A DNA stretch of 36,890 bases, taken from an uncultured Bacillota bacterium. Its GTDB lineage: Bacteria > Bacillota_I > Bacilli_A > RF39 > UBA660. The translations under genes and the position numbers were made by a program. The DNA lies in assembly GCA_946407495.1 (NCBI GenBank), contig CAMJOB010000009.1:1-36890 (forward strand). Reading direction: 5' to 3'. Numbering within the stretch: position 1 is the first letter of the stretch; every line of letters begins with the position of its first letter. This document shows, piece by piece, positions 5,311-36,890 of the stretch. The notes under the pieces are model-generated. The model ran no database searches. It had not been told where the DNA came from and saw only the letters and a list, made by a program, of their open reading frames with translations.

Positions 5311-5330
5311 TTTTTTAGAAGGTGATTTTT

Positions 5331-14801: not shown

Positions 14802-15347
14802 TTAAAATATACCAGCTAGTTTTTGTAAGTCTGCTTCAGTTAAATCAATCATGTGCCATTTACCATCTAGTTTATGGAAAGTAAATTCAATACTATATTT
14901 TTCTTTAGAAGATGTTTTTTCCATCTCTTTTAATTTGTAATCTACTTTCTTTTCATCACTTTTAGCTTGACCATATAGACTTAAATAACTAGTTGCTTTA
15001 TCATAGCTAGATTTGTAATCTAGTACATTGAATTGTACTTTAATTGTCGCATCTACTTCTCCGACTTTTTCTTCGGCTATTTCATAATCAAGATTTTTAT
15101 ATTGTTTCTTGATTAATTCTTTATATTTTTTTAATTGAGCCTCAGTTAATTCATCATTGAAAGGATATTCAATCTTACTAACTACTTCACTATCTAATTT
15201 CTTGTATTGATTTAAGAAATCATTTGTTAGATCAAGTGGAGTTTTATTATCTCCTCCTTTTAGAAGTAATCCTATTCCTAGAACTCCTATTACTATGATA
15301 GCTACTGCAATTACACTTGCGATAAGTAATTTACTCTTCTTTGCCAT
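14802..15347 (-). CDS. Membrane-anchored extracytoplasmic protein overlapping the first giant gene
   Basis: 181 residues from the ATG at 15347. An upstream in-frame start at 15362 is less well placed; the 15347 ATG follows AGGAGG by 7 bases. A lysine-rich start (MAKKSKLL) and one helix (about 6-28) are followed by a linker and a domain of about 145 residues outside the membrane. Motifs include DLTNDFLNQYKKLD, YPFNDELTEAQ and a C-terminal FHKLDGKWHMIDLTEADL. The last reads like the end strand of an NTF2/DUF4878-like fold, but this is tentative. The gene starts 17 bases inside the 3' end of the giant gene at 15331-25125 and shares its transcript, so it may be a partner or maturation factor. The other giant copies end in a terminator without such a gene. 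Confidence 0.8.
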   Translation of the reverse strand: MAKKSKLLIASVIAVAIIVIGVLGIGLLLKGGDNKTPLDLTNDFLNQYKKLDSEVVSKIEYPFNDELTEAQLKKYKELIKKQYKNLDYEIAEEKVGEVDATIKVQFNVLDYKSSYDKATSYLSLYGQAKSDEKKVDYKLKEMEKTSSKEKYSIEFTFHKLDGKWHMIDLTEADLQKLAGIF

Positions 15348-18300
15348 GATATCCCTCCTCACTTATTCTTAATAACTTGGCATTACGAAGGAATAATCCT
15401 AAAGCTCCTAGAATAGCTACTAAGATTCCTCCGAAGATATATAATGCATTTATATTACCTAATACTTCTTCAAAGATAGATTCTTTCATATAGTATTCTA
15501 CTAAAGTATTTGATGTATAGATTTTATTGTTTTCAGTTACAACTTCATCCATATCATCACCTAAGATACTATTAACATCAACTACATCATAATCATCTCT
15601 TACTGGGTTATAGTAAGTAATATATTCTTTAGTAATACTTCCTGTATTATTAGAACCATTCTTTCTAATATACTCTTTTGTCTCTTCATCTCTCATGACA
15701 TATCTACCATTGTCATTTACATCGATTGGAGTTTCTTTTAGCATCTTTTCTAACTCTAATGCTTCATTGTAACTATTACCTTTATTTGAACCAATTAGAG
15801 GTTCTGTTACTTTAAAGTGATCTCTGAAGTATTCTAATATTGATATATCTTCATTTGCTTTTTCTTGTTCTATTTCTTTACCTGTGCGGTAATCAAATAC
15901 TACAACTTTACCTGTCTTATACATTAATACTACAGCACTTGTTTGTGAACTTAAGTTATTAGTCATATATAAGACTTCTTTATTACTAAAGTTTCCTGGT
16001 CTACTTATTGGAGTTTTAAGATCATAGATAGTTCCATCTACTCCAAGAACTGAAACATATTCTTTTTCAGCATATTCATCTACTATTATGGAGTTGTGAT
16101 AACTATCTAATTCACTATCTACAATTTGAATAGTATTATTTTTTACAAATAATTGATTATCATAAATTATCTCTCCTTCACTCTTATGAATGATTGAGTA
16201 ATTATAATATGTATCAATATTCGTATCATTATATTCAAATCTATATAATGGACTAGTATCAACTACTCTAGTAGTGAAATCAAATGAATCTTCTACAAAT
16301 TCTTCTTTATCTATATCATATACTTTTAAGTTTTCAGTTAAAGCATAATTCTTATAGATATGAATGAATTTATCTTTAGGAGCTGAAATATTACCTTTTA
16401 ATTTACCATTATAGATATAAGCATATTTCTTTTTGTATGTGCTTGCTACTTGTCTATATTGTGTTTCTTTAACTTGATATTTCTTTGTATTTCTACCATC
16501 ACTTACAACTATTTCAATCTCACTTCTATAATCAGCACCGATTGTATAAGTTCTTTGTGTGATGTTTTCATCAACTACTTTAGTTCCTCCATTTAGTACT
16601 TCGAAGTATGTATATCCATCTGCTTCACTAAATTCTAGATTTAGAGTATTTACTCCAGATGAGTAAATATTTAAATCTGGTAATACATGATCTGCAGGTG
16701 CATCCATTAATCTTCTAGTACTAAAGTTAACTACTGTTTCTGGTCTTAATAATTTCTTTTGTTCTGGTCTTACTGTACTTCCAGAATTTCTCTTAACTAA
16801 TGGGAAGTATCCACTTGATAATACTGAGAAATCCCATTTATTAGTTTCAAATGATTGTCTATCTGTATCTAGACAGATATTTGTATAGAAACTTTGAGTT
16901 GCTAAAATAGTTTGATCTATGAAGTATTGAGTAGCAATATTCGTTAAGTTTAATGAACTTACATAAATACCATTTAATCTATTATTTTTATAGATACGGA
17001 ATGTTGTTAATTGAGTTGTTGGATATAGTCTTGTATCTTGGCCATTTACTGCACCTATATATGGGTTTGATGTTGTTACTGTATTTACATCAGCAACTAT
17101 TACGATATTGTAATACATCTTAGGTGTAACTTGTGAACCAGATACTGTTGCTCCAACAAATCCTCCAGCATAGTTATTAGCTAGAACTTTTGTATTTAGA
17201 ATCATGATATCTCTTGCAATACATGAATAGTTATTATCAGATGCATGAACATTATTTAGGAATCCAAATGCTCCTCCAGCATAATTTCCTGTTGCTGTTA
17301 TATTTGCATTTACAACTACACGATATACTCTTGAGTTAGCAGCATCACCTAAAATACCACCTACATAATTTCTACCATTAATTATTACATTATTAACATA
17401 TGAATATTGTACGTTAGTTGTACTATAACATCTTCCAGCAATACCACCAGTGTAGTCACCAGCATTTGTGATAGTTGTATCAACAACACCTATATCTAAG
17501 TGTTGGTAACCACTTTCAATAAATCCAAATGCTCCACCTACTCTTTGTTTACCGGTATTAGTTTGATTAATAATACAATTTAATACCATTGATTGATCAC
17601 ATCGCCAGCATCTACCAAAGATACCACCAACATAGTTGGCATTAGCATTAATTGTTACGTTTTGAACAATGTTTCCATATTCATAATAGAATCTTGATCT
17701 TCCTGCGATACCACCAACGTACTCTCCTCCACCAGTAGAAGTTATTGTTGAGTCATATATTTCTGAGTAAGCAGCTCCACCATATCCGAATAGACCACCT
17801 ACATCATGTTTTCCAGTTACATTCATATGTCTTCCGATGAATCTGAAACAGTTTGTACCATCTCTAGCATCTCCTTGTCCCATAATTCCACCGGCATATC
17901 TACCAGTACTTGTAATTGTTGAATACTCAGCAGTTATATCGTTTGTTGGATTTGTATAAGAGTATGCAATTAATCCTCCAACATAATCTGCACCACTCGA
18001 TGTATTATGTGAAAGTTTAACATTCTTAAAGTTTTGTCCTCTATGTCTTGAGATAGGAGCTATATAACTACCTTTAGATATAGTAGTAATGTTATTAAAT
18101 TCACAATTATCTACATCGGCATAGTTCATATAAATTACACTTATTGAACTTACATTTTGAGTTGACTCTAAGTCAATATTTTCAAATATTACATTTGTAA
18201 GTGATGTAGTTACTTCTCTTATTAATGATGTCTTAGCAGCTGTGATACCAGTCTTACGATAATTCATTATCTTATATTGTGTACCATCTTGTTTTAAGAC

Positions 18301-21300
18301 ACCTTCAAGTCTTGAGAAGATAACACCGATTCTTACATTTACTTTATCAGTAAAATCTATATCTCCAGTTAAACGATAGTTTTCTGGAACTGTTGTACTG
18401 ATATGTGTCCAATCATCATACTTAGATAAGAATTTGAAGAATTGTAAGTCTATTCTTATACACTTATCATAAGGCTCTAATTTAGTTGAACTTGCATTTG
18501 TCTTAAAGTTAACTTTCGTTAAGGCATAACTATCGAAATAGTTATCTGGGGTTACTACCATATCTGCAATTGTAGTTCCATCATCTACTTGATTTACGAA
18601 TCTTGCACTTGTAGTACTTAATCCATCAAATTCTACTGATTCAATAATATATTGATTTGGATTGTCAAATACTATATGCAACGTAGCACTATTTGGAGAT
18701 GCATCTTTTTGATAACTTAAGATATCGAATAATTCACTATCAAGTTTTACATCTCTTTGATTTAAGACTAATTCTCCAGTTTCTGGATTTTTAATCTTAG
18801 GAAGTTGCTTTCTATTAATTTCACTAAAGTCAAAACTTGATTCTTCAAATCCAATCAAATCGATATATGTATTCTCTTCTTGTAAATCTGTAGTTGATAA
18901 TAGAATTTCTGCTGAAGTTTCTCCAGTAACGAATCCATAGAATTTTTGTTTATCCCATGCATAGTTATTTTGAACTACAGCGAATACATTACCTGTTGTT
19001 CTGTGAATATTATTTGTTTCATCTGCTTTATATGATGAGTATACTGCACCGATTGATAAAGTATTAGAAACGTTATTATTATCTGATCTACCAACAATAC
19101 CACCAACATAATCAAGGTTAGTCATTATATCGACATAACTCCATACATTAGTTATTGTTCCTGAACTACGTCCAGCAATACCTCCAACATATACTGAATT
19201 ACATTTAATCTTTCCTACTGCGTAAGAATTTGATACTCCTCCATTTACTAATCTTCCGACTAATCCACCAACACCTAACGTTGAGATAGAATCTTCAATC
19301 TTAATATCAACATCTTGTGCAAATGAATTTTCAATAAATAAGTAATCTGAGTATCCGGCAAATGATCCTACATGTAGGTCATCTGCTTCTGTTGGAATAA
19401 TTGGATTAAATCCTGTAACAGAACTATTTCTAATAGTCGTATAAGATGCATATCCGATTAATCCACCAATACGGGTCGTTGCAAATACTTTTACATTGTT
19501 AACATGTACGTTATCAAATATAGAGTTATTATTTGTTTGATAAATAATTCCACCATAACTTGTACTATTTGTCTTTTTATAATTTGTGAAAGTAATATTT
19601 TTAATAGTACCACCTGATACTCTTGAGAATAAGGCGTTACCACTATTGATTGTAATATTACTAATTGTATGTCCACGTCCATCTAGTTTAGCTTTAAAAT
19701 CACCATTTACTATGTAATTAGTCATTGATGTATTTAAGAAATCTATATCAGTCATTAAAGCATAGTTTTGAGCTGGGTTTTCAACAACCTTTTTCCAATC
19801 TTCTTTAGATCTAATTGGATAATATAAATCTACATTGATTGCTCTTTCATTTTTTTCATACATTCTTTCATAATTATTACCATAGGCTGGTTTTAACACT
19901 AATGTATCTAGATAGTAAATTGATTTATAAGTTCTTGGATTTAGTAATTCAACTGTTAAATCTGTTTTTCCATATAAATCTTTTTGTTCTAGGATATTTA
20001 CTGTTCCAATATCTGTGATTGTGACACTTTCAATATGTTCTGCAGATGGGTTATTAATATGAAGTTTAACTATTGCGCTATCTCCATTATTAACTACCTC
20101 TTCTACTGATGTAACATCAACAAGGTCTCCATCTGTAATCTTTGGTAATTCAATCCATTCTTGTCTTGGCATACATTCATTTAATTTTACTTGTGGGAAG
20201 TATCCCAAATCAACGAATGAATCAACTTCAAATCCATCATAGATATTAATAATATCATTTTGGAAGTTTTTGTCATATAGTGCCAACTTGGAAATTTTAG
20301 CACTGACAGTACCACCGTATGTTTTATCTGATGAATAATATACTTTATCGTAACGAAGTCCATTCTTATAACCAATATTTGGATCTTGAGTTAGGATATT
20401 TGTATTTGTTCTATTTGGTAATTCAACAGAATATGAGTTACCAAAGTAACCAGACTCATGATGACCAATAATATTACCTACGGCGCTTTCTCTTTCACCA
20501 GTACCATAGCTGTTACTCTTTTCTACAGTTACTAATGAATAAACAGCTTCAATTCTTGAGTTATATTCTGCATAACCAACCATACTACCAACATCTTTAC
20601 GTGTTCTTGTATCGACGTTTTGGAAGTATGCATATAGGTTTTCACCATAAACATAACCATTTCTTAATACTCCTGAATTGTACCAACATACATATCCTCC
20701 ACCGGCTTTAAGTGACATTGGTGCTTCAGCATTAATTACAAAATTTTTAATTTGACCATAGTTTTGTCTTACAATTAAGCCCATAATGGTATTACCATTA
20801 TTATTTGCTTCTTTAATATTTACAACCATGTTATCTATTGTTCCATAGAAGTATCTAGCAAAACCATAATATTCATTAACACTGGTTGTATTATCTAAGT
20901 AATAATCCATTACTATATTTTTAAATAAAGAACCTGCTCTAGGGTATTCAAATAATCTTGTTGAAGAACCTGCTAAATTACGTTTTATTGTATGTCCTTG
21001 GAAATCTATTTCACCATAGAAATATGAACCATAATAAGAATTGTAATTTGTAAAGTCTAGGTCTTCTAGAACTATATATTTACCATTTGTATGGATAGCC
21101 ATTAATTCTTTAGCTGTTGTAATTGCACGTATTTCATTTTCAGTAGTAAATGTTACTTCTGCTAAATCATAGAAACGTTCACGTACTTTTACTGATACCT
21201 TAACTGTGTAATAAACGTTTTTATCGAATCTATATGATTTTTGAATGTCTTCCATAGATAAAGCAGTTAAATCATATCTATGTGTTTCAACTAAAGTCTC

Positions 21301-24300
21301 TTTACGATAAATTCTTACGTACCAATCTTTATTAACTAATTCATCTCTTAGATCGTACATATTAATTTTAAATTTACCTACAAATTGATCATCTTCGTTA
21401 TAGTTTTCAAATCCAATATAGTTTGAACGATTGCTATAAGAGATACAACCTCTGTGTCCTGAGATATATGAAGAACCTCCGGCACCTGTAGTACCATGTC
21501 CGTTAGCTCCTCCGTAGTAGCCTCCGCCACCACCGCCACCCCATCCACTTGTGATGGATTGGATAGCGTATCCAAACTGTCCACGTCTATCATTTCCACT
21601 TAAACCTGTTCCACCTGATACCTGAGTTCCACCACAAGTAGTATATTGAGTAGTTTGATATGTTGTATTTGATGTAGGACCATTTAATCCAATTAATCCT
21701 CCACCAGATCCAGCTTGGGTAGATGAAGCAGATACTGCTCCTCCTCCACCAGCAGCTACCATGATACGTGATTTTAGTGATTCCAAATTATTCCAATTAC
21801 CATTTGTTAAACGGAAGTCTGTTCCACCTCCACCACCGAATGATCGTCCTCCTCCGTTATTTCCGGAAGCTCCTCCACCATTCCATGATGCAGTATTAGT
21901 AATTGTCCAATTTGCATGTCCTTTTTCTCCGACATATACATATATTTTTTTATTCTTATCTAATAATAATCTACCTGAAGTATAGGCTCCTTTTCCACCA
22001 ATATATGGACTATATGTTCCACCTTGAGCACCCCAGGCTTCAAATTTATAGTAACCAAATTCTGGTGCGGTAAATTCTTGAACTCCACCGGTATATGAGA
22101 ATGTAGTTACTGTTCCACTATTCTCATTTGTAATCTTTGCATATCCATTACCAGTATTACCAACCATTATTCCTGTTCCATCATGTGTTGGCATTTCATG
22201 ATCTCCATCAATCATTTCTGTGTTGATGAATCTTAATCCAGATTCATGATATGAAAGTATTAATTCAGAATCTGTATTATCTAATGTTGTATCATCTACA
22301 ATCATTATTTGAATATCTTTGAAATCTACTATTGTTTTTAAGTTCATGTTTGCAGTTTCAACAACGTTGAATCCAACATAGACATTGTATTGATAGAATG
22401 AGAATTCATAATCTTGGAATTCATCTGTTAAATTTTGAATTCTAAAGTTTTGGTTATTACCATTTCCAATTCCAATATAGGCAGGTGCCTTATTTGGACT
22501 ATCTGGACTATATCTTGCTTTAAATGAAACTACTATTGTGTGTAAGTATGATTCTGGAGTGTAATATGAATGGTTAACATATCCATTCTTTGCTCCAAAG
22601 GTAACCATATTATTACTTAAATCATATTGTTTATATGGAGTATTACCTTCTTTACGAATACGATCGTAATCTCTAATATTGAATAAGTTCTTTCCATTTA
22701 TTTTTCTTGTTAAGCCTGTTAATTCAATATCTGCTTTTACACCTTCTGTAGTATTAATTACTTTTTCTAATAAATGATAATCACTTTGGAATGTTTGGTT
22801 TGTATAACCAATGTTATATTCCTCTACATAGTATGTAAATGTATAATCTTTATTTGGATTTAAATGGTCATATGTTAATTGAACATAATCACCATTAATT
22901 GCTAGATATTCTTTTCCTACTAGTCTGCCACCTTCATCACGAACTTCTAGTAACGCTCTTGGTGACTCGATTGCACCATCGATATCTACTATTCTTACAT
23001 CGAAGTCAATAAATGTTCCTGTTACGAATTCATTTCTTAATTGTACTTCTGCTTTTCTCTTATAAGTTTTAAAGTTTTTGAAAGAACATAATACATTGAT
23101 TGATTCTCTTACAGTACCTTGCTTAACTACTGCTGCATAATCAATATTATAAGTAGTTACTGATTGTAGATTACTTAAACGTATTAAGAAATCTTCTCCT
23201 AGACGAAGATTATCTAATTCATCATCTTTATATGTATGTGCATATAGAAGAACTCCTTGTTCATCTGTTACTGATACACTGAAGCTATCTAGTAATTCCA
23301 TAAGTATTGGACTTACATTGGCAATATCAATTCTTGATGAGATAGTTGCTCTATCACTTTCTAATTCTGTAGTAGATGCAACTACACGGTAGAATCCTAA
23401 TGAGTTTAATGGAGAAGTAGTAAACTTACCTTCACCCATAACTTGATCTACTTGTTTTCCCTTTCCATCTTCTACATCATATGTACCTAATACTTGAATA
23501 GTATATGTAGTATTTGGATTTAAATCTCTTAAAGTAATTGTATTAGTTTCTTTAGTATTATCTAAGTTTTGCTCTTTTATAATATTATTCATATTATCAA
23601 ATACGATAAATTTATAATGAGCAATATTTACTTCATCAACATTCTTTAAAATGATTTGAGTAACTACTTGATTAACTTGTGAAGAAACTATTTTAACAGC
23701 TGCAGTTGGTTTATTTTTACTAGTTCTACTGCTACCTGTATTATTTCTTATTTTAATTTTATTTCCATAGGCATCTAGGAATTGAATATCATAATTATAT
23801 GATGTATTTGCCTCTAATTTTGCAGGAGATGTATAAGTAACTTGTCTACCTATTAACATTTCTTGTAGTAATCCTGTAGAAATAGAATATTGTTCATCAC
23901 CTATATTAATTACTGCTTTATTAACACCTTTTGTTGTTTCACTTTTTATATCTGAAGTTATTCCTAAATTTAATAATTCTATTTTATTTGGATATACTTC
24001 TCCATTTTCAAAAGTTAAATCAATCGGATCTAGATTATCAACACCTAAGGTGCGAATTTCTTGTTCAAAGAAAGTCTTCTCCATTTTCTTACTTTCTTCA
24101 TTATAGTATTTATAAGTACCTACAATTTTGAAGTTTTGATTTGGAACAAGTCCAACTACTTCAATAGCACCACCAGATACAAATGTCTTTCTTAAATATA
24201 CTTTATCATTTACATAGAATTGGAAGTTAATTCCACCTACAATAACTCTTGATGGATCTGAAATACTTAATGATGCTTTTGCTGAATAAACATTTGCTGT

Positions 24301-25125: not shown

Positions 25126-25157
25126 CACCCATTCTCCTACTTTTTTACCTTACTTTT

Positions 25158-25276: not shown

Positions 25277-28200
25277 GTTTCTGAAATATCACTTACTCTT
25301 AAAAGTTTAGCATTTCTCATGAATAAACCTAAAGCAGTTAAGATTGCAACTAAGATTCCACCAAAGATATATAATGCATTGATGTTACCTAAAACCTCTT
25401 CAAATATAGAAGGCTTCATGTAGTATTCTACTAAAGTGTTTGAAGTGAAGATTTTGTTGTTTTCAGTTACAACTTCATCATCGTCTCCTTCAAATATACT
25501 TTCGACATCAACTACATCATAATCATCACGAACTGGGTTGTAGTAAGTAATGTATTCTCTTGTAATACTTCCTCCACCACTTACTTCTCCACTTCTCTTG
25601 ATTTGTTCTTTAGTTTCTTCATCTCTCATTACATAGTTACCATTACTATCTCTATCAATTGGTGTTTCTTTTAATGCTTTTTCTAGTTCTAGAGCTTCTT
25701 GATAACTGTTTGTTGTTCCTTCTCCTAATAATGGAGCTCTTACATTAAAGTTTTCTTTAAAGTAATCAAAGATTGAAACATCTTCACTTGCTTTTTCTTG
25801 TTCTATTTCTTTTCCAGTACGATAGTCAAATACAACTACTTTTCCAGACTTGTAAACTAATACAACTGCACTTGTTTGAGAGTCTATATTATTAGTCATA
25901 TAATATATCTCTTTATTACTAAAGTTGCTTGGTCTACTTATTGGAGTTTTTAAGTCATATAATGTTCCATCTAAACCTAGAACTGAAACATATTCTTTTT
26001 CAGCATATTCATCCACTATTATTGAACTATGATTACTATCTAATTCTCTATCAACTATTTGAATAGTATTATTCTTAACAAATATTTGATTATCATAAGT
26101 TAAGTCGTAATCATTCTTATGAACAATTGAATAACTATAGTAAGTATCAACTCTTGTATCATTATATTCAAATTTAAATAGTGGTTTGGTTAATTCAAGA
26201 CTTGTTTCAAAATCAAATGAATCATCAACAAATTCTTCTTTATCAAAATCATATACTTTTAGATCATCTGTTAAAGCATAGTTCTTATAGATATGAATAA
26301 ATTTATCTTTAGGTGCGGATACATTTCCTTTTAATTTACCTTTATAGATATAAGCATATTTTTTACCATAAGTACTTGCGATTTGACGATATTCATTTTC
26401 TTTTACAACGTATTTCTTAGTATTTCTACCATCACTTACTGTAATTTCTATTTCACTCTTATAATCTGCATCAATTGTATATGTTCTTTCATTGATGTTT
26501 TCATCAATTACTTTTGTTCCACCATTTGTAACTTCAAAATATGTATATCCATCTGCTTCACTAAACTCTAAATTCAATGTATTAATTCCAGAAGAATAAA
26601 TATTTAGTTTCGGTAATACATGATCAGCAGGTGCATCCATTAATCTTCTAGTACTAAAGTTAACTACAGTTTCTGGTCTTAATAAGTCTTTTTGTTCATC
26701 TTTAATATCTTGATTTGCTGTAGACCATTTTTTAACTTTAGGGAAGTATCCACTAGCTAATTTAGTATAACTCCATCTATTAGTTACGAAGTTTAAGTTA
26801 GTATAATAAGTTTCTGTTCCTAGATTTGTTTGATCTGCATAGTATTGTGAAGCTATATGAGGTAAGCTTAATGAACTAGCATATACACCATTTAAACGGT
26901 TATTTTTATAGATACGGAATGTAGTTAATTGAATATTAGAATATAATCTTGTATCTTGTCCATTTACTACACCAATATATGGATTTGATGTTGCGGTTGT
27001 ACTACAATCGGCAACTATTATGATGTTATAGAATTTGGCAGGTGTTACTTGTTTACCTGTTGGTGTTGCACCTACAAATCCACCTACATAGTTATTACCT
27101 AAGACTTTAGTATTTGCTACTAAGATTTCTTGTACTACTGCTGAATAGTTACTATCAGATTCATGTACTGAAGATATGTAACCAAATACTCCACCAACAT
27201 AATCACCTGTTGCAGTAATATTTACGTTTGTTACATTTCTATATAATCTAGCAGTTGTACCTGAACCAGCAGCTCCACCTACATATGATTTACCATTAAT
27301 AACTACATTGCTTGTAAATGAGTATTCAAGAAGAGCACCACCATTGATACGTCCTTCAATACCACCAGTATAGTTACCTGCATTTGTAATTGTTGTATCA
27401 GATACGCCCATATTATTATGAGTATAACCATCGTGGATTCCGATTGCTCCACCTACATATGATTTATTTACATTTGTTTGATTGATTATACAATGTTTAA
27501 CTGTTCCACCATATAAGTGTCTAGCCCAACCATATAATCCACCAACGTAGTTTGCATTGGCATTGATAGTTACATTTGAAGCAAGTTGTGTGTTTTCAGC
27601 TTCGTATGAAGTTCTACCTCCAATACCACCAACATATTCTCCACCACCAGTTGAGTTAACTGTTGAATCGTAAATGCTTGAAGTATAGGCTCCACCATAA
27701 CCATATAGTCCACCTACTTCATTCTTTCCTGTAATATTCATATTTCTACCAGTAAATCTATAAGCGTTATAACCATTACGATAATCACGATAAGCAGTTA
27801 TACCACCACAATATCTACCAGTACCTGTTACAGTATTTCCATCTCCAGTAACATCGTTTGCTGGAGTGTTATAAGTATGAGCAAGTAATCCACCGACATA
27901 GTCTGCACCGGACGATGTATTATTTGTTGCTTTTACGTTATTGAAGTTCTGACCTCTATGTCGACCAATTGGAGCTATATAACTACCTTTAGATTTAGTA
28001 GTAATATTCATAAACTCAACATTTTCTACGTCGGCATAATTTAAATAAATTACATTTATAAAGTTCTTATTCTGTGTAGACTCTAAATCAATATTATCGA
28101 ATGTAACATTCTTTAATGTAGTTGTAACTTCACGTATTAAAGCTGTCTTTTCAGCAGTAATACCAGTCTTTGTATAATTCATAATCTTGTAGTTTGTACC

Positions 28201-31200
28201 ATCTTGTTTAACAAGTCCTTCAAGTCTACCAAATATTACACCAATTCTTACATTATCTCTATCTGTGAAATCAATGTCTCCAGATAGACGATAATTTTCT
28301 GGAATTGTTTGACTTACATGTGTCCAGTCATCATATGTTGCGAGTGGCTTATAGAATTGTAAGTCAATTCTTATTATCTTGTCATAACTATCTCTCTTAC
28401 CAGATGGTAATGCATAATTAACTTTATTTAAGATATAACTATCGAAATAAGATTTAGGTGTTACTACCATATCTCCGATAGTAGTTCCATCATCTGCTTG
28501 ATTAACAAATCTAGCATTTGAAACTGTTAAACTATTAAATTCAATACTTTCAATTGTATATTGATCAGGATTATTTATTACAACGTGAAGAATGGCACTT
28601 GCTGCTGAAGCATCTGTTTCATAACTTAATAAGTCAAATTTTTCATTCTTTAACTCAATATCTTTTTGTTCTCCTACCAATAAACCTGTTTGTTTATCAA
28701 TTACTTTTGGTAAGATATTTCTTTCAATTTGACTATAGTCATAATCATTATCAGCAAAACCAATTAAATCAATATAAGTATTATATTCTTGTAAATCAAT
28801 TGTTGATAATAAGACTTCTGCTGAAGTTTCACCAGTAACGAATCCATAATATTTTTGTTTATCCCAAGCATAGTTGTTTTGAACTACTGCCATAACATTA
28901 CCTGTAGTTCTATGAACGTTACTCGTTTCATTTGATAAGTAAGATGAATAAATTGCACCAAATACCATAGTATTATTAATACTTTGAGTATCGGCTTTTC
29001 CAACTATTCCACCTACATAATCTAAGTTAGTCATTATATCAACATAACTCCATACATTATTGATGGTTGCCGAATCATATCCAACTAATCCACCAACATT
29101 GGCAGAGTTACAATTAATTTTTCCTGTAGCATATGAACTTGTTAAGGCACCGTTTACCATACGACCTACAAGTCCACCTACTCCTAATGTTGATACAGCA
29201 TTTTCAATGTTTATGTTAACATCTTGTGCAAAACTACTTTCAATTATTAAGTAATCAGAGTATCCAACTAATGCTCCTGTATAATAGTCATCTGCATTAT
29301 TTGGAACTATAGGACTAAAGTTAGTAACTGAACTATTTCTAATTGTAGTATACGATGCATATCCAAATATACCACCAGCTTGAGTATTGGCATATACTTG
29401 AACATTTTTCATATGGACATTATCAATAATTGCATTACCATTACTTTCATAAATTAGTCCACCACGAGCTGTAGCATTGGTCTTTTTATAATTCTCAACA
29501 TTTAAGTTTTGAATTGTTCCACCTGCTAATCTTGTGAATAAACCGTTACCACTATTGATAGTAATATTACTAATAGTATGTCCTCTACCATCTAATTTAG
29601 CAGTAAAGTTTGAAGTAACCATATATTGTGTCATTGATGTATTTGTAAAATCAATATCAGCCATCAATGCATAATTTTGAGATGGGTTCGCAACTATTTT
29701 CTTCCAATCATCTTTTTCGTAAATTGGATAATATAAATCTACGTTTATTGCTCTTTCATTCTTCTCATAAATCTTATCGTAGTTACTACCATATGCAGGT
29801 TTAAGTGTTATTGTATCTAGATAATAAATTGATTTATAAGCAGTTGGATTTAATAATTCAACTGTTAAATCAGTTTTTCCATATAAATCTTTTTGTTCTA
29901 GGATATTAACTGTACCAATATTAGTTATTGTTACTTTTTCAATTTTTTCTACAGATGGATTATTAATATGAAGTTTAACTATTGCACTATCTCCATTATT
30001 ACTTACTGTTTCTACTGAAGTAACATCTACTAAGTCGGCATCTGTTACTTTTGGTAATTCTATCCATTCTTGTTTAGGCATACAGTCATTTAAATCAACT
30101 TGTGGGAAGTATCCTAAATCAACAAAGCTATTTACCACAAAGCCATCATATTTATTAAGAATCTTATTTTGGAAGTTCTTGTCATATAAAGCTAATTTAG
30201 ATATTTTCAAACTCTTTGAACTACCATAAACTTTATCAGACGCGTAGTATAAATCGCTATAACGAATTGCATTTACATATCCTAAGTTAGGATCTTTAGT
30301 TAAGATATTTGTGTTAGTTCTATTTGGTAATTCAACTGAATATGCATTACCAATATAACCTGATTGTTGGTGACCAACTAAGTTACCTACAGCAGTTTCT
30401 CTTTCACCTGTACCATAACTATTACTCTTCTCAACTGTTACTAATGAGTATACAGTTTCAATTCTTGAGTTATTTTCTGCCCAACCTACTAAACCACCAA
30501 TATCTTTTCTATCACGTGTTTCAATATTTTGGAAATAACCATAGAAGTTTTCTCCATAAACATATCCATTTCTTAAAACACCCTGATTATTCCATACAGC
30601 GTAACCTGCACCAGCAATTGCTGATAAAGGTGCTTCTGCATTAATTACGAAGTTTTTAATTGTTCCATAATTATTTCTACAGAATAAACCAACGATATAG
30701 TTTGGATTATTATTAGCTTCTTTAATATTTAAAATAGCATTGTCTATTGTTCCATAATGGTATGCAACAATACCATGATAATCCGATTTACTAGTTGTAT
30801 TATCTAGGTAGTAATCAACAACTATATTTTTAAGAACTGCACTACTTCGTGTATTTTCAAATATACGATAGTTTGCATTTGTAACGTTACGTTTAACATG
30901 ATGTCCTTGGAAATCTATCTGTCCATAGAAGTACGATCCATAGGCACTATTTAAACCAGTGAAATCCAAATCTTCCAGTACAATATATTTTCCATTTGAG
31001 TGGATATTTAATAATTCTTGGGCTGTTGTGATAGCCCTTATTTCTGTTTCAGTAGTGAACTCTACAAAGGCTAAATCATAGAAACGATTACGTACTTTTA
31101 CTGAAACACTAACTGTATAGTTAACGTTTTTATCGAAAGTATAAGATTTTCTTACATCTTCTAAAATATCTTCAGTTAAGTCATATTGATGTGTCTCTAC

Positions 31201-34200
31201 TAAAACACCTTTACGATAGATTCTTACATACCAATCTTTATTAACTAATTCATCTCTAAGATCATACATATTAATTGTAAAGTTACCTTTATATTGCTCT
31301 TTTTCAATATATTTCTCTGTTTGTAAGAATGTTGCAGCATTATTATTTGAGATACAACCTAAGTGACCTGAGATGTATGATGATCCTCCACCAGCACCAC
31401 CATTATAGTTGTTTGATGGTTGTCCACCATACCAGCCGCCGCCACCGCCTCCGGTATCAGTATTTGTTGTTACATTTCCACCAATTCCAAAAGCAGCTCC
31501 ATATGTTTGAGAAGCAAAATATGCTCTATTTAGTACACCATTAATGTAGGCACCTTCACTTACGATATTACCTCCGGCACCTCCACGTCCATCATTTGCA
31601 CCATTTAGTGTTCCTCCGGCATCATCAACACCGCCACCGCCTCCGGCGACCATGATTCTTGAATTAAGAGATTCTTCACTATTCCATGCACCATTCTTTG
31701 TACGAACATCTGTAGCTCCTCCTCCGGAACCAGAATTCTTATTTCCACCATTTCCGCCGCCATTCCAGCCGCCTAATGGTCCTCCATATGAATTAGTACC
31801 TGCTCCATATTTACCAGCGCCACCTACATAAACATATAATGTATATCCATCATTTAATGAAACTTCACCATATGTATATCCACCACGTCCAGAACGGCCA
31901 GCCATAGTTCTATTTGAACCTACTGGACTTGCAGTATCTCCTCCAGCTGCTCCCCAACATTCAATAGAATATTTTCCTGATGATGGGATTGTGAATGTTT
32001 GTGGACTACCAGTATAATCAAAGTTATATACTTTACCATCACTTAATCTAGTGATTCTAGCATAACCGTTACCTGCTCTACCAACCATTGTTCCACCTGA
32101 TGGATTAGGCATTGTACTATTACCATCAATCATTTCGGTATTAATAAAACGATATCCAGAGTTGTGGTAAGAAAGTGTAATATCTTGTTTTGATGGATCC
32201 ATATCCATTAAGTCAGCATATTGAATTTGAATATCTTTAAAGTCAATTGCTGTTTTCTTATTTTGGTTGGAAGTTTCAACTATATTAAATCCAACATAAT
32301 TACTTGTTAGGTAGTAAGTAAATGAATAATCTTTATATTCATCTTCTATATCTTTTATTTGGTAGTTTTGGTTATTACCACTACCCATACCTATATAAGC
32401 AGGTGCTTTGTTTGGAGATTTTTTATTATATCTAGCTTTAAAGCTTACTGTAATAATATGACCATTTGCTTCTGGTAGGAAGTATGCATGGTTAACATAT
32501 CCATTTTTTGCACCAAACATAACAGTATTATTCTTTATATCATACTCTTTGTATGGTGTATTACCTTCTTTACGAATACGATCATAATCTTCAATATCAA
32601 ATAAGTTCTTACCACTTATTTGTCTTTCAAGGTCTATTAATTCAATTTCTGCTTTTACACCTTCTGTAGTATTAATTACTTTTTCTAATAAGTGATAATC
32701 ACTTTGATATGTTTGATTTGTAAAACCAATATTATATTCCTCAACATAGAATGTTAATTTATAATCTTTATTTTTCTCTAATTGATCATAAGTTAATTGA
32801 ACAAAGTCTTCATTAATTCCTAAGTACTCTTTTCCAACTAATCTATCTCCTTCATCACGAACTTCAAGAAGTGCTCTTGGTGACTCGATTGCTCCATCGA
32901 TATCTACGATACGAACATCGAAGTCGATAAATGTTCCTGTTACGAATTCATTTCTTAATTGTACTTCTGCTTTACGTTTGTATGTTTTGAAGTTTTTAAA
33001 TGAACATAATACATTGATTGATTCTCTTACAGATCCTTGTTTAACTACTGCTGCATAATCAATATTGTATGTAGTAACTGATTGAAGGTTTGTTAATCGA
33101 ATTATAAAATCTTCTCCTAAACGAAGAGTATCTAGCTCGTCATCTTTATATGTATGAGCATATAGAAGTGTTCCTTCTTCATCTGTTACCGCAATACTAA
33201 AACTGTCTAATAGTTCCATTAGTATCGGATTGATATTTGCAATATCAAGTCTTGAAGATACTGTTGCTTTATCACTTTCAAGTTCTGTAGTAGATGCAAC
33301 TACACGATAGAATCCTAATGAGTTTAAAGGTGCTGTTGTAAATTTACCTTCACCCATTACTTGGTCTACTTGTGTACCATGACCATCTTCAACATCATAA
33401 GTACCTAATACTTGAATATTATATGTAGTATTTGGATTCAAATCTCTTAGAGTAACTGTGTTTGTTTCTAAGTTTTTGTCTAAGTTCTTTTCTTTAATAA
33501 CATTATTCATGTTATCAAAAATAATAATTTTATAATGGTTAATATTAACATCATCAATATTCTTTAAGATGATTTGTGTTATTACTTGATTAACTTGAGA
33601 TGAAGCAATCTTAACTGATGCAGTTGGTTTATTTTTACTTGTTCTACTGCTTCCTGTATTATTCCTAATTTTAATCTTATTACCAAAAGCATCTAGAAAT
33701 TGGATGTCATAATTGTATGATGTATTGGCAGTTAATTTTGCAGGTGAAGTATAAGTAACTTGTCTACCAATTAATATTTCTTGTAGTAAACCAGTTGAAA
33801 TACTATATTGTTCATCACCTATATTAATAACAGCTTTGTTAACACCTTTTGTTGTTTCACTTTTTATATCTGATGTAATACCAAAGTTTAATAATTCAAT
33901 CTTACTTGGATATATTTCACCATTTTCAAAAGTTAAATCAATTGGATCTAGGTTATCAACACCTAAGGTACGTATTTCTTGTTCAAAGAAAGTTTTTTCC
34001 ATTTTTTTACTTTCTTCATTGTAGTATTTATAAGTACCTACGATTTTAAAGTTTTGGTTTGGAACAAGTCCAACAACTTCAATTCCACCACCAGATACGA
34101 ATGTCTTTCTTAAATAAACTTTGTCATTTACGTAGAATTGGAAATTGATTCCACCAACTATAACCCTTGATGGATCTGAAATACTTAATGATGCTTTTGC

Positions 34201-35040
34201 AGAATATACATTAGCTGTGAAACTAGATACTTTTACTTTTGGAGCAATGTATTTAGTTTCTTTTGGTTCATCATTTTTTATGATGATAATGTAGTCTTCT
34301 TTTTCTGGTTCTTCTTCAATTACTTCTTCTTTTGGAGGTGCTTCATATTTACCTAATTTTGTTAATACTCTTTCGTATGTATATTTATAATCTCCAAAAG
34401 TGATTATGTCACTTAAGTTAATTCCATCTACTATTCCATAAACCATTTTCCCAGATTTACTATAAGAATAATAATTGAAGTAATCTTCTTGGAAATTGAT
34501 TACACTGTTTTCTGGTACTTCATGTAGACCACTATTTGTAGTTATTGTTAATGGTAATAAATTAATATAAGTACCGTTTGCTAATTGTAATAAAATATAT
34601 GTTTCGTAATCAGCTTGTTCATAATCTCCGAAGTTATATAATTTACCACCAGTTACAGTGAAGTTTTCATACGTTTCAAACAATTCAAATTTATGGTTAA
34701 TAAGAACAGATTTTGAATCTAGGTTAACTACTCCTAAACCATTATTAACGAACATTGGGTAAACTGTATTTACTTCTGTTTTCTTTTCTTCTCCAACAAA
34801 GATTTTATCTAGATTAGAATAGAATGTATCATTAGAACTAATTTTATTAAGTTTTACGTTACCAGTTTTAGCTACTTTATTCTCATTTAGAAGAACTTCA
34901 TCCATGTCTTCTCCACTAACGAAGAATCCATCTCTTGCGATAAGCGATGCTTCATTAAAACGAGTTAAATAAAATAATGCACCAATAAAAATAACTAGTG
35001 CGAGGAATGCAAAAACGTAATACGATTTTTTCATTAGCAT
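25264..35040 (-). CDS. Giant surface protein, copy 2
   Basis: About 3,258 residues from the ATG at 35040 (GTG at 35043 also in frame), with the same start region as copy 1. The domain order is identical: N-terminal anchor, conserved domain, acidic linker one residue shorter, Fn3-like part, KNLFDIEDYD jelly-roll-like segment, MIDGNSTMPNPSGG...GNGYARIT strip, glycine-rich domain (about 1007-1231), three beta-helix blocks, conserved C-terminal domain and terminal helix (about 3232-3250) with basic tail RNAKLLR. The first roughly 700 residues are almost the same as copy 1, mostly with synonymous base changes. The glycine-rich domain and parts of the beta-helices are strongly different. It has its own promoter and terminator and no small partner gene. 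No HExxH protease motif and no LPxTG signal were found. Confidence 0.93.
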   Translation of the reverse strand: MLMKKSYYVFAFLALVIFIGALFYLTRFNEASLIARDGFFVSGEDMDEVLLNENKVAKTGNVKLNKISSNDTFYSNLDKIFVGEEKKTEVNTVYPMFVNNGLGVVNLDSKSVLINHKFELFETYENFTVTGGKLYNFGDYEQADYETYILLQLANGTYINLLPLTITTNSGLHEVPENSVINFQEDYFNYYSYSKSGKMVYGIVDGINLSDIITFGDYKYTYERVLTKLGKYEAPPKEEVIEEEPEKEDYIIIIKNDEPKETKYIAPKVKVSSFTANVYSAKASLSISDPSRVIVGGINFQFYVNDKVYLRKTFVSGGGIEVVGLVPNQNFKIVGTYKYYNEESKKMEKTFFEQEIRTLGVDNLDPIDLTFENGEIYPSKIELLNFGITSDIKSETTKGVNKAVINIGDEQYSISTGLLQEILIGRQVTYTSPAKLTANTSYNYDIQFLDAFGNKIKIRNNTGSSRTSKNKPTASVKIASSQVNQVITQIILKNIDDVNINHYKIIIFDNMNNVIKEKNLDKNLETNTVTLRDLNPNTTYNIQVLGTYDVEDGHGTQVDQVMGEGKFTTAPLNSLGFYRVVASTTELESDKATVSSRLDIANINPILMELLDSFSIAVTDEEGTLLYAHTYKDDELDTLRLGEDFIIRLTNLQSVTTYNIDYAAVVKQGSVRESINVLCSFKNFKTYKRKAEVQLRNEFVTGTFIDFDVRIVDIDGAIESPRALLEVRDEGDRLVGKEYLGINEDFVQLTYDQLEKNKDYKLTFYVEEYNIGFTNQTYQSDYHLLEKVINTTEGVKAEIELIDLERQISGKNLFDIEDYDRIRKEGNTPYKEYDIKNNTVMFGAKNGYVNHAYFLPEANGHIITVSFKARYNKKSPNKAPAYIGMGSGNNQNYQIKDIEDEYKDYSFTYYLTSNYVGFNIVETSNQNKKTAIDFKDIQIQYADLMDMDPSKQDITLSYHNSGYRFINTEMIDGNSTMPNPSGGTMVGRAGNGYARITRLSDGKVYNFDYTGSPQTFTIPSSGKYSIECWGAAGGDTASPVGSNRTMAGRSGRGGYTYGEVSLNDGYTLYVYVGGAGKYGAGTNSYGGPLGGWNGGGNGGNKNSGSGGGATDVRTKNGAWNSEESLNSRIMVAGGGGGVDDAGGTLNGANDGRGGAGGNIVSEGAYINGVLNRAYFASQTYGAAFGIGGNVTTNTDTGGGGGGWYGGQPSNNYNGGAGGGSSYISGHLGCISNNNAATFLQTEKYIEKEQYKGNFTINMYDLRDELVNKDWYVRIYRKGVLVETHQYDLTEDILEDVRKSYTFDKNVNYTVSVSVKVRNRFYDLAFVEFTTETEIRAITTAQELLNIHSNGKYIVLEDLDFTGLNSAYGSYFYGQIDFQGHHVKRNVTNANYRIFENTRSSAVLKNIVVDYYLDNTTSKSDYHGIVAYHYGTIDNAILNIKEANNNPNYIVGLFCRNNYGTIKNFVINAEAPLSAIAGAGYAVWNNQGVLRNGYVYGENFYGYFQNIETRDRKDIGGLVGWAENNSRIETVYSLVTVEKSNSYGTGERETAVGNLVGHQQSGYIGNAYSVELPNRTNTNILTKDPNLGYVNAIRYSDLYYASDKVYGSSKSLKISKLALYDKNFQNKILNKYDGFVVNSFVDLGYFPQVDLNDCMPKQEWIELPKVTDADLVDVTSVETVSNNGDSAIVKLHINNPSVEKIEKVTITNIGTVNILEQKDLYGKTDLTVELLNPTAYKSIYYLDTITLKPAYGSNYDKIYEKNERAINVDLYYPIYEKDDWKKIVANPSQNYALMADIDFTNTSMTQYMVTSNFTAKLDGRGHTISNITINSGNGLFTRLAGGTIQNLNVENYKKTNATARGGLIYESNGNAIIDNVHMKNVQVYANTQAGGIFGYASYTTIRNSSVTNFSPIVPNNADDYYTGALVGYSDYLIIESSFAQDVNINIENAVSTLGVGGLVGRMVNGALTSSYATGKINCNSANVGGLVGYDSATINNVWSYVDIMTNLDYVGGIVGKADTQSINNTMVFGAIYSSYLSNETSNVHRTTGNVMAVVQNNYAWDKQKYYGFVTGETSAEVLLSTIDLQEYNTYIDLIGFADNDYDYSQIERNILPKVIDKQTGLLVGEQKDIELKNEKFDLLSYETDASAASAILHVVINNPDQYTIESIEFNSLTVSNARFVNQADDGTTIGDMVVTPKSYFDSYILNKVNYALPSGKRDSYDKIIRIDLQFYKPLATYDDWTHVSQTIPENYRLSGDIDFTDRDNVRIGVIFGRLEGLVKQDGTNYKIMNYTKTGITAEKTALIREVTTTLKNVTFDNIDLESTQNKNFINVIYLNYADVENVEFMNITTKSKGSYIAPIGRHRGQNFNNVKATNNTSSGADYVGGLLAHTYNTPANDVTGDGNTVTGTGRYCGGITAYRDYRNGYNAYRFTGRNMNITGKNEVGGLYGYGGAYTSSIYDSTVNSTGGGEYVGGIGGRTSYEAENTQLASNVTINANANYVGGLYGWARHLYGGTVKHCIINQTNVNKSYVGGAIGIHDGYTHNNMGVSDTTITNAGNYTGGIEGRINGGALLEYSFTSNVVINGKSYVGGAAGSGTTARLYRNVTNVNITATGDYVGGVFGYISSVHESDSNYSAVVQEILVANTKVLGNNYVGGFVGATPTGKQVTPAKFYNIIIVADCSTTATSNPYIGVVNGQDTRLYSNIQLTTFRIYKNNRLNGVYASSLSLPHIASQYYADQTNLGTETYYTNLNFVTNRWSYTKLASGYFPKVKKWSTANQDIKDEQKDLLRPETVVNFSTRRLMDAPADHVLPKLNIYSSGINTLNLEFSEADGYTYFEVTNGGTKVIDENINERTYTIDADYKSEIEITVSDGRNTKKYVVKENEYRQIASTYGKKYAYIYKGKLKGNVSAPKDKFIHIYKNYALTDDLKVYDFDKEEFVDDSFDFETSLELTKPLFKFEYNDTRVDTYYSYSIVHKNDYDLTYDNQIFVKNNTIQIVDRELDSNHSSIIVDEYAEKEYVSVLGLDGTLYDLKTPISRPSNFSNKEIYYMTNNIDSQTSAVVLVYKSGKVVVFDYRTGKEIEQEKASEDVSIFDYFKENFNVRAPLLGEGTTNSYQEALELEKALKETPIDRDSNGNYVMRDEETKEQIKRSGEVSGGGSITREYITYYNPVRDDYDVVDVESIFEGDDDEVVTENNKIFTSNTLVEYYMKPSIFEEVLGNINALYIFGGILVAILTALGLFMRNAKLLRVSDISETKRD
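31351..32023 (-). other. Segment encoding the glycine-rich domain of giant copy 2
   Basis: Same ordered motifs as in copy 1: KYSIECWGAAGG, TLYVYVGGAG, SGGGATDVR, RIMVAGGGGG, GGGGGGWYGG, GGGSSYISGHLGC. The intervening loops differ in length and sequence (for example the SNRTMAGRSGRGGYTYG loop and the NGVLNRAYFASQTYG loop). It is the most divergent region between the two complete copies, flanked by well-conserved sequence on both sides. Confidence 0.8.
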
Positions 35041-35072
35041 CACCCATTCTCCTATTTTTTTACCTTATTTTT

Positions 35073-35101
35073 ATTATACTAAAAATACGCTTTATTTTAA
35101 A
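35073..35101 (-). promoter_or_regulatory. Promoter of giant copy 2
   Basis: On the minus strand: TTTAAA (35101-35096), 17 bases, TATAAT (35078-35073), matching the copy 1 promoter in boxes, spacing and distance to the start. The spacer differs and lacks the palindrome found in copy 1. Confidence 0.7.
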
Positions 35102-35171
35102 TAAAAATAATACATTTTTAAGCATAAAAATTACTTATGGTACAAATTTAAAATAATTGTTTAAAATCAAT

Positions 35172-35201
35172 AAAAAAAGGAGATATTTTAATCTCCTTTT
35201 T
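35172..35201 (-). terminator. Terminator of giant copy 3
   Basis: AAAAAGGAGAT/ATCTCCTTTTT stem (35174-35184 with 35191-35201) and a six-base loop containing part of the stop codon. The A run at 35172-35178 gives the U-tract on the minus strand. Confidence 0.82.
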
Positions 35202-36890
35202 CATCGCTTACTTTTAATAATTTTGCATTACGTAGGAATAATCCTAAAGCAGTAATTATTGCGATTAATATACCACCAAATATATATAGTGCATTAACAT
35301 TTCCAAGTACTTCTTCGAATATTGATGGTTTCATGTAGTATTCTACTAAAGCGTTAGATGTATAAATCTTATTATTTTCAGTAACTACTTCTTCTTCGTC
35401 ACCCTCTAAGATACTTTCAATGTCCACAACATCATAATCATCTCTTACTGGATTGTAATATGTGATGTATTCTCTTGTGATACTTCCACCACCACTTACT
35501 TCTCCACTTCTCTTGATTTGTTCTTTAGTTTCTTCATCTCTCATGACGTATTTTCCATTACTGTCAGTATCGATTGGAGTTTCTTTTAAAGCTTTCTCAA
35601 GTTCTAGAGCTTCTTGATAACTATTAGTTGTTTCACTACCAGTTAATGGTGTATTAAATTTGAAGTTTTCTTTAAAGTAATCAAAGATTGAAACATCTTC
35701 ATTTGCTTTTTCTTGTTCTATTTCTTTACCTGTACGATAATCAAAGACTACTACTTTACCAGTCTTATACATTAATACTACAGCACTTGTTTGTGAATTC
35801 AAGTTATTAGTCATAAACAAGATTCCTTTATTACTAAAGTTACTTGGTTTATTTAAAGCTGATTTTAGATCATAAATATTTCCATCTAATCCAAGAACTG
35901 ATACATATTCTTTTTCTGCATATTCATCAATTATTAATGAATTATGATAACTATCTAATTCTTTATCAACTATTTGAATAGTATTATTTTTTACAAATAA
36001 TTGGTTATCATAAGTTAAGTCATAACTCTTCTTATGAACTACTGAATAATTATAATATGTATCTATTTCAGTATCATTATATTCGAATTTGAATAATGGT
36101 CTTGTTATTTCTAGAACTGTTTCAAAATTATATGAATCTTCTACAAATTCTTCGAGATCAAAGTCATATACTCGTAAGTCATCAGTTAAGGCAAAGTTAT
36201 TATAAACATGTATGAATTTATCTTTTGGTGCAGAAATATTTCCTTTTAATTTTCCACCATAGATATATGCATATTTCTTTCCATATGTACTTGCAAGTTG
36301 ACGATATTCATTTTCTTTTACTTGATACTTCTTAGTATTTCTACCATCACTTACTACTACTTCTATTTCACTCTTGTAGTCAGCATCAATTGTATAAGTT
36401 CTTTCATTGATATTTTCATCAACTACTTTAGTTCCACCATTTAGAACTTCAAAATATGTATAACCATCTGCTTCACTAAATTCTAGATTTAGAGTATTTA
36501 TTCCAGATGAATAAATCTTTAAATCAGGTAATCTATGATCAGGAGGTGCATCCATTAATCTTCTTGCACTAAAGTTAACTACTGTTTCTGGTCTTAATAA
36601 ATCTCTTTGATTTGAACTAACATCTTGATTTCCTGTAGACCATTTCTTAACTTTAGGGAAATATCCACTAGATAGTTTTGTATAACTCCATCTATTTGTA
36701 TGGAAATTCAAGTTAGTATAGTAACTTTGTGTAGCTAAATTAGTTTGGTCTGCAAAGTATTGAGTAGCAATATTAGGTAAGCTTAATGAACTTACATATA
36801 CTCCATTTAAACGGTTATTTTTATATATACGGAATGTTGTTAATTGAATATTTTGGTGTACTCTTGTATCTTGTCCATTTACAGCACCTA
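35188..36890 (-). CDS. Giant surface protein, copy 3, C-terminal part; start lies beyond the right edge
   Basis: 567 codons are open from the right edge to the stop at 35188; the frame continues through 36711, so an internal ATG there is not the start. The visible part begins in the last turns of beta-helix block 3 (GAVNGQDTRVHQNIQLTTF). It continues through LRPETVVNFSARRLMDAPPD into the conserved C-terminal domain (EYAEKEYVSVLG, VFDYRTGKEIEQEKA) and ends in the terminal helix IFGGILIAIITALGLFLRN with the basic tail AKLLKVSDEKGD. It is closer to copy 2 than to copy 1 in the linker after the beta-helix and in the SGEVSGGGSITREYI segment. From the two complete copies I expect about 2,690 more residues upstream, but this is not seen. 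Confidence 0.92.
   Translation of the reverse strand, partial: GAVNGQDTRVHQNIQLTTFRIYKNNRLNGVYVSSLSLPNIATQYFADQTNLATQSYYTNLNFHTNRWSYTKLSSGYFPKVKKWSTGNQDVSSNQRDLLRPETVVNFSARRLMDAPPDHRLPDLKIYSSGINTLNLEFSEADGYTYFEVLNGGTKVVDENINERTYTIDADYKSEIEVVVSDGRNTKKYQVKENEYRQLASTYGKKYAYIYGGKLKGNISAPKDKFIHVYNNFALTDDLRVYDFDLEEFVEDSYNFETVLEITRPLFKFEYNDTEIDTYYNYSVVHKKSYDLTYDNQLFVKNNTIQIVDKELDSYHNSLIIDEYAEKEYVSVLGLDGNIYDLKSALNKPSNFSNKGILFMTNNLNSQTSAVVLMYKTGKVVVFDYRTGKEIEQEKANEDVSIFDYFKENFKFNTPLTGSETTNSYQEALELEKALKETPIDTDSNGKYVMRDEETKEQIKRSGEVSGGGSITREYITYYNPVRDDYDVVDIESILEGDEEEVVTENNKIYTSNALVEYYMKPSIFEEVLGNVNALYIFGGILIAIITALGLFLRNAKLLKVSDEKGD

Follow-up and report, generated by a model that had tools for sequence, protein, structure and literature searches.

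The giant surface proteins encoded in the window (36,890 nucleotides, the whole stretch of DNA analysed) are, on balance, best read as the variable outer arm of a rotary machine that derives from an F-type ATPase, is decoupled from ions and moves surface proteins. Comparison across related genomes argues strongly that the giant gene belongs, by genetic linkage, with an F-type-ATPase-derived gene cluster. Judged from the genes that it contains, this Bacilli cluster is an undescribed machine derived from ATP synthase; a literature search on giant proteins in RF39, or on such a cluster, found nothing relevant.

Tandem copies of the giant gene

Three giant genes follow one another on the reverse strand. 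Copy 1 (15331..25128) is an open reading frame of 3,265 codons counted from a GTG, with full-length homology to single-copy genes elsewhere; translation probably begins at the next codon, an ATG. Copy 2 (25264..35043), defined by its reading frame and translation, encodes 3,259 residues. Of copy 3 (35188..36890) the contig end leaves only the C-terminal 566 codons. The window takes up all of contig C9 (from an assembly of 1.14 Mb, 68% complete), which leaves no sequence into which the array could be followed further, and the missing part of copy 3 was not found on the other contigs. The sequence-only reading had proposed at least three tandem genes, each of about 9.8 kb and 3,260 residues. The tandem arrangement, the minimum of three and the completeness of two hold; for the third, that length is not borne out. 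The giant frames are open under genetic code table 11 and equally under table 4, and an alternative code was rejected. Searches of the window for Rfam families and for tRNAs gave no match.

Are the copies real, or might a misassembly have stacked strain variants of one gene? Copies 1 and 2 are 74% identical overall and 84–96% identical over residues 1–800, and copies 3 and 2 are 84% identical in their C-terminal region. At third codon positions copies 1 and 2 agree at about 55–75% across most of the scaffold and at as little as 34–42% in the glycine-rich region. Relatives carry one full-length giant each. The third-position divergence and the single full-length homologues in relatives exclude misassembly, which the sequence-only reading had named as one of the findings that would overturn it. 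We conclude that the giants of the window are, by their divergence, old paralogues and not strain variants.

The promoter motif TTTAAA-N17-TATAAT precedes copy 1 (25158..25186, reverse strand) and copy 2 (35073..35101, reverse strand). It is kept, with a spacing of 16–17 nt, upstream of the orthologues in three other species (G001, G004 and G005). Hairpins followed by a T-run, recognised from sequence and folding, lie 3' of copy 2 (25241..25275, reverse strand; −11.5 kcal/mol) and of copy 3 (35173..35202, reverse strand). The earlier proposal that each gene has its own promoter and terminator thus stands for the promoters of both complete copies and for the terminators of copies 2 and 3, and fails for the terminator of copy 1. 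The end of that copy overlaps the gene for p184 (14802..15362, reverse strand), and the hairpin lies 3' of the latter. The small protein p184 has one N-terminal membrane helix and homologues in six other genomes; in relatives, too, the giant gene is followed by p184.

Domain architecture of the giants

How is so large a protein built? Most features are given here for copy 2, all on the reverse strand. Hydropathy places a membrane helix at residues 9–27 (34963..35019) and another at residues 3224–3242 (25318..25374; about 3224–3247), the latter followed by a short tail. Helices at both ends recur in all 14 full-length homologues, in agreement with the two anchors first read from the sequence. 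Residues 790–944 (32212..32676) form a CBM-like jelly roll in the AlphaFold model; Foldseek returned CBM4/6/16/22 rows with weak E-values and a probability near 1. The ALK/LTK-type glycine-rich domain spans residues 1021–1252 (31288..31983; PF12810, E = 4e-43) and is of a type common to G001 and G004. Its counterpart in copy 1, residues 1025–1233 (21430..22056, reverse strand), was assigned by Pfam, comparison and tree, and is of the type of G005. The Pfam matches to this domain range from E = 1e-39 to 4e-43, as the ALK-like assignment made earlier would predict. The domain is an optional module, present in 7 of 14 homologues. Pfam matches to Fn3 are weak to marginal and those to the Glug motif weak.

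Two β-helix blocks and a probable third follow. Block 1 (residues 1336–1657; 30073..31038) was modelled and compared by VIA-align. The modelled part of block 2 covers residues 1769–1960 (29164..29739; AlphaFold), with a Glug motif at 1953–1977. Block 3 (residues 2413–2700; 26944..27807) is a probable β-helix, proposed from GG-x-x-G motifs that are invariant about every 29 residues in an alignment of 14 sequences. The models of domain slices therefore support the jelly roll, the glycine-rich domain and the β-helices that had been anticipated, and the Fn3-like segments find their marginal counterpart in Pfam. The earlier remark that no named family was known to have this architecture agrees with an NCBIfam search, in which the giants matched no family.

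Block 1 resembles the Glug-type β-helix of M26 IgA1 proteases (Z 25, rmsd 3.1–3.2 Å over about 270 residues; the next unrelated rows score Z about 15). Do the giants, then, handle antibody? In mycoplasmas the F1-like X0 ATPase is required for the MIB–MIP system, the genes of which are tandemly amplified next to the ATPase (PMC12994834). Together with the fold match, this would suit a counterpart in which host antibody is bound by the giants and then set free by the action of the ATPase. We consider such a role very improbable. No Pfam peptidase, M26 or other, was matched in 14 giants; architecture and anchoring differ from those of the M26 enzymes; a match of folds shows no function; and glycans or some other ligand are what the CBM-like and glycine-rich modules suggest.

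The glycine-rich domains of copies 1 and 2 are only 39% identical. In each of four scaffold segments the two copies are sisters (support 1.0); in the tree of the glycine-rich domain, copy 1 joins G005 (0.996), and copy 2 sits with G001 and G004. At the level of sequence, these trees demonstrate a module swap, by which the glycine-rich tips of copies 1 and 2 differ and the N-terminal scaffolds beneath them are nearly identical.

Distribution and linkage to the ATPase cluster

Within this Bacilli family the giant gene occurs in 15 genomes. Its architecture extends beyond the window genome: the other 14 have it in single copy. In 10 of the 15, belonging to many genera, the giant lies within the same cluster as the alpha–gamma–beta–eps–p180–p240 genes, and the F-type-ATPase-like operon is present in every carrier tested. 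In a sample of 386 genomes of the family, all 14 giant carriers fall among the 33 that are positive for the gamma-like gene; a hypergeometric test gives a nominal P of 6e-17, uncorrected for phylogeny. The same pattern holds inside the genus of the window: G000, G001, G004 and G005 have both giant and operon, and G002 and G003 lack the giant, the gamma-like gene and the c-like gene. A giant of this family was undetectable in 19 further gamma-positive genomes, mostly of the gene order termed subtype II; it is therefore not an obligate part.

The giant gene stands apart from the operon in G012 and in the window genus. In the window genome the operon is on contig C12 and the giants are tandemly amplified on C9; in this 68% complete assembly the copy of protein A is truncated at a contig end. 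The link to the ATPase cluster is not visible from the window alone. In profile comparisons the N-terminal part of the giant matched p480 of the cluster with a probability of 88% (E = 3e-6), the Fn3 region of the giant matched protein A (96%), and protein A matched p480 (97%).

Might the giants simply be stand-alone adhesins or glycan-binding proteins, inherited together with the ATPase cluster and mechanically uncoupled from it, their copies giving antigenic or ligand variety? Their own promoters, the unlinked position in the window genus, the swap of glycine-rich modules and the subtype II clusters without a giant would all fit, and CBM, glycine-rich and β-helix domains are common among adhesins. 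Against this stand the complete co-occurrence, which extends to presence and absence within one genus, the placement of the giant within the cluster in ten genomes spread over many genera, and the domains that it has in common with A and p480. We regard independent adhesins as rather unlikely.

An F1-like head, a stalk-like protein and a rotor homologue without the ion carboxylate

What does the cluster encode? The beta subunit has GGAGVGKT and GER–REG in 15 of 15 sequences, alpha has Walker A (G-K-TGKT) and the arginine finger SVSRLGGA in 9 of 9, and gamma matches PF00231; as read from these residues, the catalytic motifs are intact. A candidate assignment of p456 as a HerA-like HAS-barrel ATPase was rejected, Pfam identifying it as ATP-synthase beta subunit. 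Beta scores 461.5 bits against the atpD model, just under the cut-off of 462.85, and 399.8 bits against the curated Type 3 model NF045934, short of its cut-off of 570 bits. In a FastTree phylogeny it forms its own clade (0.954), apart from the mycoplasma F1-like X0 motors; the node that would place this clade relative to Type 3 is weakly supported (0.635).

The model of p250 has a long N-terminal helix and a delta/OSCP-like domain, and its leading Foldseek rows, with weak E-values, are peripheral-stalk subunits of ATP synthase; p250 thus resembles a b–delta-like stalk. A conserved gene for 80–90 residues 3' of beta was called eps-like by position and size, and profile comparison with canonical epsilon gave no supporting match. 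Profile searches of PDB sequences with the eps-like and b–delta-like alignments returned nothing useful.

Does the rotor still carry ions? A c-subunit homologue (PF00137) scores above cut-off in 15 of 17 genomes, the remaining two being without the cluster; in the 15 cluster genomes tested it sits at the cluster wherever its position was checked. The notion of a cluster without any Fo part was rejected on this match to a small gene (<100 aa). The loop GRNPE is invariant in all 26 c-like sequences, and the ion-binding carboxylate of helix 2 is found in none (S in 10, T in 8, A in 7, M in 1). Helix 2 has no acid at all in 24 of the 26. Of the exceptions, G001 carries an Asp immediately before the lost position and the other only a C-terminal Asp. 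Subunit a (PF00119) was found in none of 17 genomes by a search that was positive in 9 of 14 controls. With the rotor carboxylate lost and subunit a not found, the torque would not be spent on pumping ions.

The cluster membrane protein with the most helices, p180 (about four), has an unassigned fold and no conserved Arg; it could be a divergent subunit a. If so, and if other polar residues bind the ion, the cluster would be a divergent ion-moving F-ATPase, with the giants as unrelated neighbours or stabilisers. The c homologue, the stalk and the F1 parts are indeed all encoded, and in 18 of 26 sequences Ser or Thr stands where the carboxylate would be. Yet the mostly acid-free helix 2, the absence of PF00119 and the lack of a conserved Arg in p180 make an ion pump improbable.

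Relation to known F1-derived machines

F1-derived surface machines are described as specific to mycoplasmas, and how force is transferred across the membrane there is unknown (PMC3369863, PMC12994834, PMC11864180). Like the mycoplasma Type 3 F1-like X0 with MIB–MIP (PMC3369863, PMC12994834), the Bacilli cluster gives a bacterium with a small genome an extra F1-like alpha/beta/gamma set; its genes lie among those for membrane proteins of unassigned kind, and it goes together with surface proteins encoded in tandem repeats. Its gene order differs, as do its outer partners (A, p480, p240 and the giants) and the separate clade of its beta. Type 2 and 3 F1-like X0 are marked by the lack of peripheral-stalk and rotor-ring homologues, whereas the cluster has a c homologue and the b–delta-like p250. 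They are also marked by a protein 1 of 12 TM helices and a protein 5 that has two helices at its C-terminus; here there is no 12-TM protein, and p180, with about four helices, has the most. For the epsilon-like subunit that likewise marks these types, the cluster offers its conserved eps-like gene, without a profile match to epsilon.

The gliding motor of Mycoplasma mobile (Type 2, G1-ATPase, Gli349/Gli521; PMC11864180) is likewise an ATPase of F1 descent for which an action on very large surface proteins has been proposed. In contrast to it, the Bacilli beta lacks an N-terminal extension, alpha aligns from near its N-terminus (G1-alpha lacks helix H1) and a c-type rotor is present; the likeness of the giants to Gli349 and Gli521 is one of size and setting. 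To a genuine F1Fo ATP synthase the cluster is alike in alpha, beta, gamma, a c homologue with its RNP loop and a b–delta-like stalk as in mycobacteria. It differs in the lack of a detected subunit a and of the ion carboxylate, in a beta just short of the atpD model, and in its wealth of outer-surface proteins.

How might a machine with the giants as outer arm work? The alpha/beta/gamma head would hydrolyse ATP and turn the c-type rotor in the membrane, and the b–delta-like stalk would stop the head from rotating with it. Torque would cross the membrane to the outer proteins A, p480, p240 and the giant, which would presumably be in physical contact with the motor. The giant would be a ligand-binding surface protein of some 3,260 residues, held by a membrane helix at each end, the N-terminal one staying uncleaved. 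Driven by ATP, the mechanical output would let its CBM-like, glycine-rich and β-helix parts take hold of a ligand and let it go, or shift it; the ligand would probably be glycans of the host or of a neighbour. Tandem copies with different glycine-rich tips would allow one motor type to serve several ligands. It is quite possible, if short of probable, that the c-type rotor is an ion-free drive shaft through which ATP hydrolysis moves the ligand-gripping giants; this branch, distinct from the motors of mycoplasmas, would have kept rotor and stator parts.

Such a further branch in uncultured Bacilli, its rotor and stator parts recognisable and its ion site erased, would provide a testable model for how force crosses the membrane. 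If true, it would show by what route an ATP synthase may turn into a motor that works mechanically at the cell surface, and it suggests a role for a giant-protein family on which genomes of about 1.0–1.5 Mb spend tens of kilobases.

Giant genes and their tips

How many giant genes does the contig hold? On the minus strand, positions 15331–36890 are filled by ORFs of 3,265 aa (copy 1, 15331–25128) and 3,259 aa (copy 2, 25264–35043) and by the final 566 codons of copy 3 (35188–36890). Of the three genes of about 9.8 kb described in the sequence-only reading, two are thus complete, but the third is present only as its end. The TTTAAA-N17-TATAAT promoter was found before both complete copies. Such sites are no more numerous in our scan than expected by chance; since three other species of the genus also have the motif, spaced by 16–17 nt, upstream of their orthologues, the promoter is very likely genuine. 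A terminator had been assigned to each copy: a hairpin and T-run stand after copy 2 and after copy 3, but copy 1 instead overlaps the next gene, p184. That the copies are strain variants was ruled out by third-position divergence. The window is the entire contig C9; its source assembly is 1.14 Mb, 68% complete. Positions 2–1972 encode a DUF285/PARCEL-repeat surface protein, truncated at the left contig end.

Copies 1 and 2 are 84–96% identical over residues 1–800 and 45–57% over residues 901–1200, where copy 2 is nearer to other species' orthologues than to copy 1. Trees of four scaffold segments pair the two copies (support 1.0). The tree of the glycine-rich domain disagrees, placing copy 1 with G005 (0.996) and copy 2 among G001 and G004 (0.944), all other species of the genus. 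This conflict between the sequence trees is best explained by recombination, which would have placed the tip on a common scaffold. Other proteins of the genome (loci L184, L185, L186 and L187) carry glycine-rich domains, two each in two of them, with about 35–50% identity to those of the giants; they are possible donors.

One hydrophobic helix lies near either end of all 14 full-length homologues. Pfam detects an ALK-type glycine-rich domain, Fn3 and weak Glug motifs. In an AlphaFold model of copy 2 residues 790–1960 (mean pLDDT 77; glycine-rich region partly disordered), a jelly roll and the glycine-rich domain are accompanied by beta-helices interleaved with domains whose strands we judge to be Ig-like. 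Beta-helix 1 aligns with M26 IgA1 proteases at a VIA-align Z of 25, the next rows standing at about 15. Foldseek rows for the jelly roll include carbohydrate-binding modules, with E-values weak for so long a model. The glycine-rich domain occurs in 7 of 14 homologues; a laminin-G-like lectin domain occurs in two of 14, at another position in the single one inspected.

Linkage to an ATPase cluster

With a 900-residue N-terminal query the giant was found in 14 of 386 family genomes (11 of 150 genera), and a separate search added G005, fifteen in total. It is single-copy in every carrier but the window genome. In 10 of the 15 it shares one cluster with gamma-, beta- and alpha-like ATP-synthase subunit genes; in G347, another family member, the order is A (1,770 aa), p459, c-like, p250, alpha, gamma, beta, eps-like, p182, p249, giant, p194. 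In the window genome the cluster lies on another contig (C12, locus L056) and lacks the giant. Of 386 family genomes, 33 carry the gamma-like gene, and these include all 14 giant carriers of the sample; two species of the window's genus have neither gene. Most of the remaining gamma-positive genomes follow another gene order (subtype II), in which A, p480, p240, c-like and p250 are retained and no giant was detected. When 395 genomes of the class were searched with a p250 profile, clear matches were confined to this family. We regard a genetic association of giant and motor as well founded and quite probable.

Two acetate kinase genes (PF00871; L056:12157–14620) lie downstream of the cluster in the window genome, and relatives carry acetate-kinase-like ORFs close to theirs; in mycoplasmas, Beven et al. 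(PMC3369863) report eutD/ack downstream of the Type 2 cluster. Several subtype I clusters have an EzrA homologue (PF06160, E 9e-100; L115:4766–6478) immediately ahead of gene A.

Subunits of the proposed motor

Is this one of the F1-like ATPases of mycoplasmas? A FastTree of beta gathers the cluster sequences into one clade (0.954), within which subtypes I and II are sub-clades. Separate from it are the mycoplasma Type 3 sequences (1.0) and the canonical subunits (0.92). Because the clade is separate and the branching order of the three has a support of just 0.635, we assign the ATPase to neither Type 2 nor Type 3.

Alpha and beta retain the catalytic and Arg-finger motifs. The alpha-like subunit of the window genome (L056:3938–6889, 983 aa) ends in a long acidic, low-complexity tail, found in many subtype I clusters and little or not at all in most subtype II clusters; in G012 the subunit reaches 1,416 aa. 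In G023 the beta-like gene (L095:4812–6161) appears as two adjoining ORFs (4812–5378 and 5379–6161), as if interrupted. The p250 model has a long helix, then a delta/OSCP-like domain; its leading Foldseek rows are almost all ATP-synthase peripheral-stalk subunits, including the mycobacterial b-delta fusion, at weak match strength (best E-value 0.007; VIA-align Z about 5–7).

The cluster at first appeared to lack a c subunit, a view overturned by a PF00137 search giving one above-cut-off match per cluster genome. The c-subunit loop of ATP synthase binds gamma/epsilon; here it reads GRNPE in 26 of 26 distinct sequences, and the ion-binding carboxylate position holds S, T, A or M. This position was set by alignment to c-subunit sequences taken to be those of E. 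coli and Bacillus PS3. The c-like gene of G001 (L057, before 3065) has an Asp one residue ahead of the lost position, the sole acid in the helix 2 core across the 26. Subunit a was searched for in 17 genomes and not found. The membrane protein p180 has about four membrane helices and shows no conserved arginine; it could be a remnant of subunit a or a novel component.

If not ion flow, what might such a motor drive? A rotor loop that is conserved, an ion site that has been erased, a stalk and an active head together point to some other output. The other conserved cluster products are A, p480 and p240, each with a single N-terminal helix, and the doubly anchored giant, which has domains in common with p480 and A. 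Mycoplasma gliding and MIB–MIP systems tie an F1-like ATPase to surface proteins (PMC11864180, PMC12994834). By analogy, torque would be handed from the ATPase, through putative contacts, to the outer proteins A, p480, p240 and the giant. For this full mechanical explanation, the giant–motor association included, the balance tips slightly in favour.
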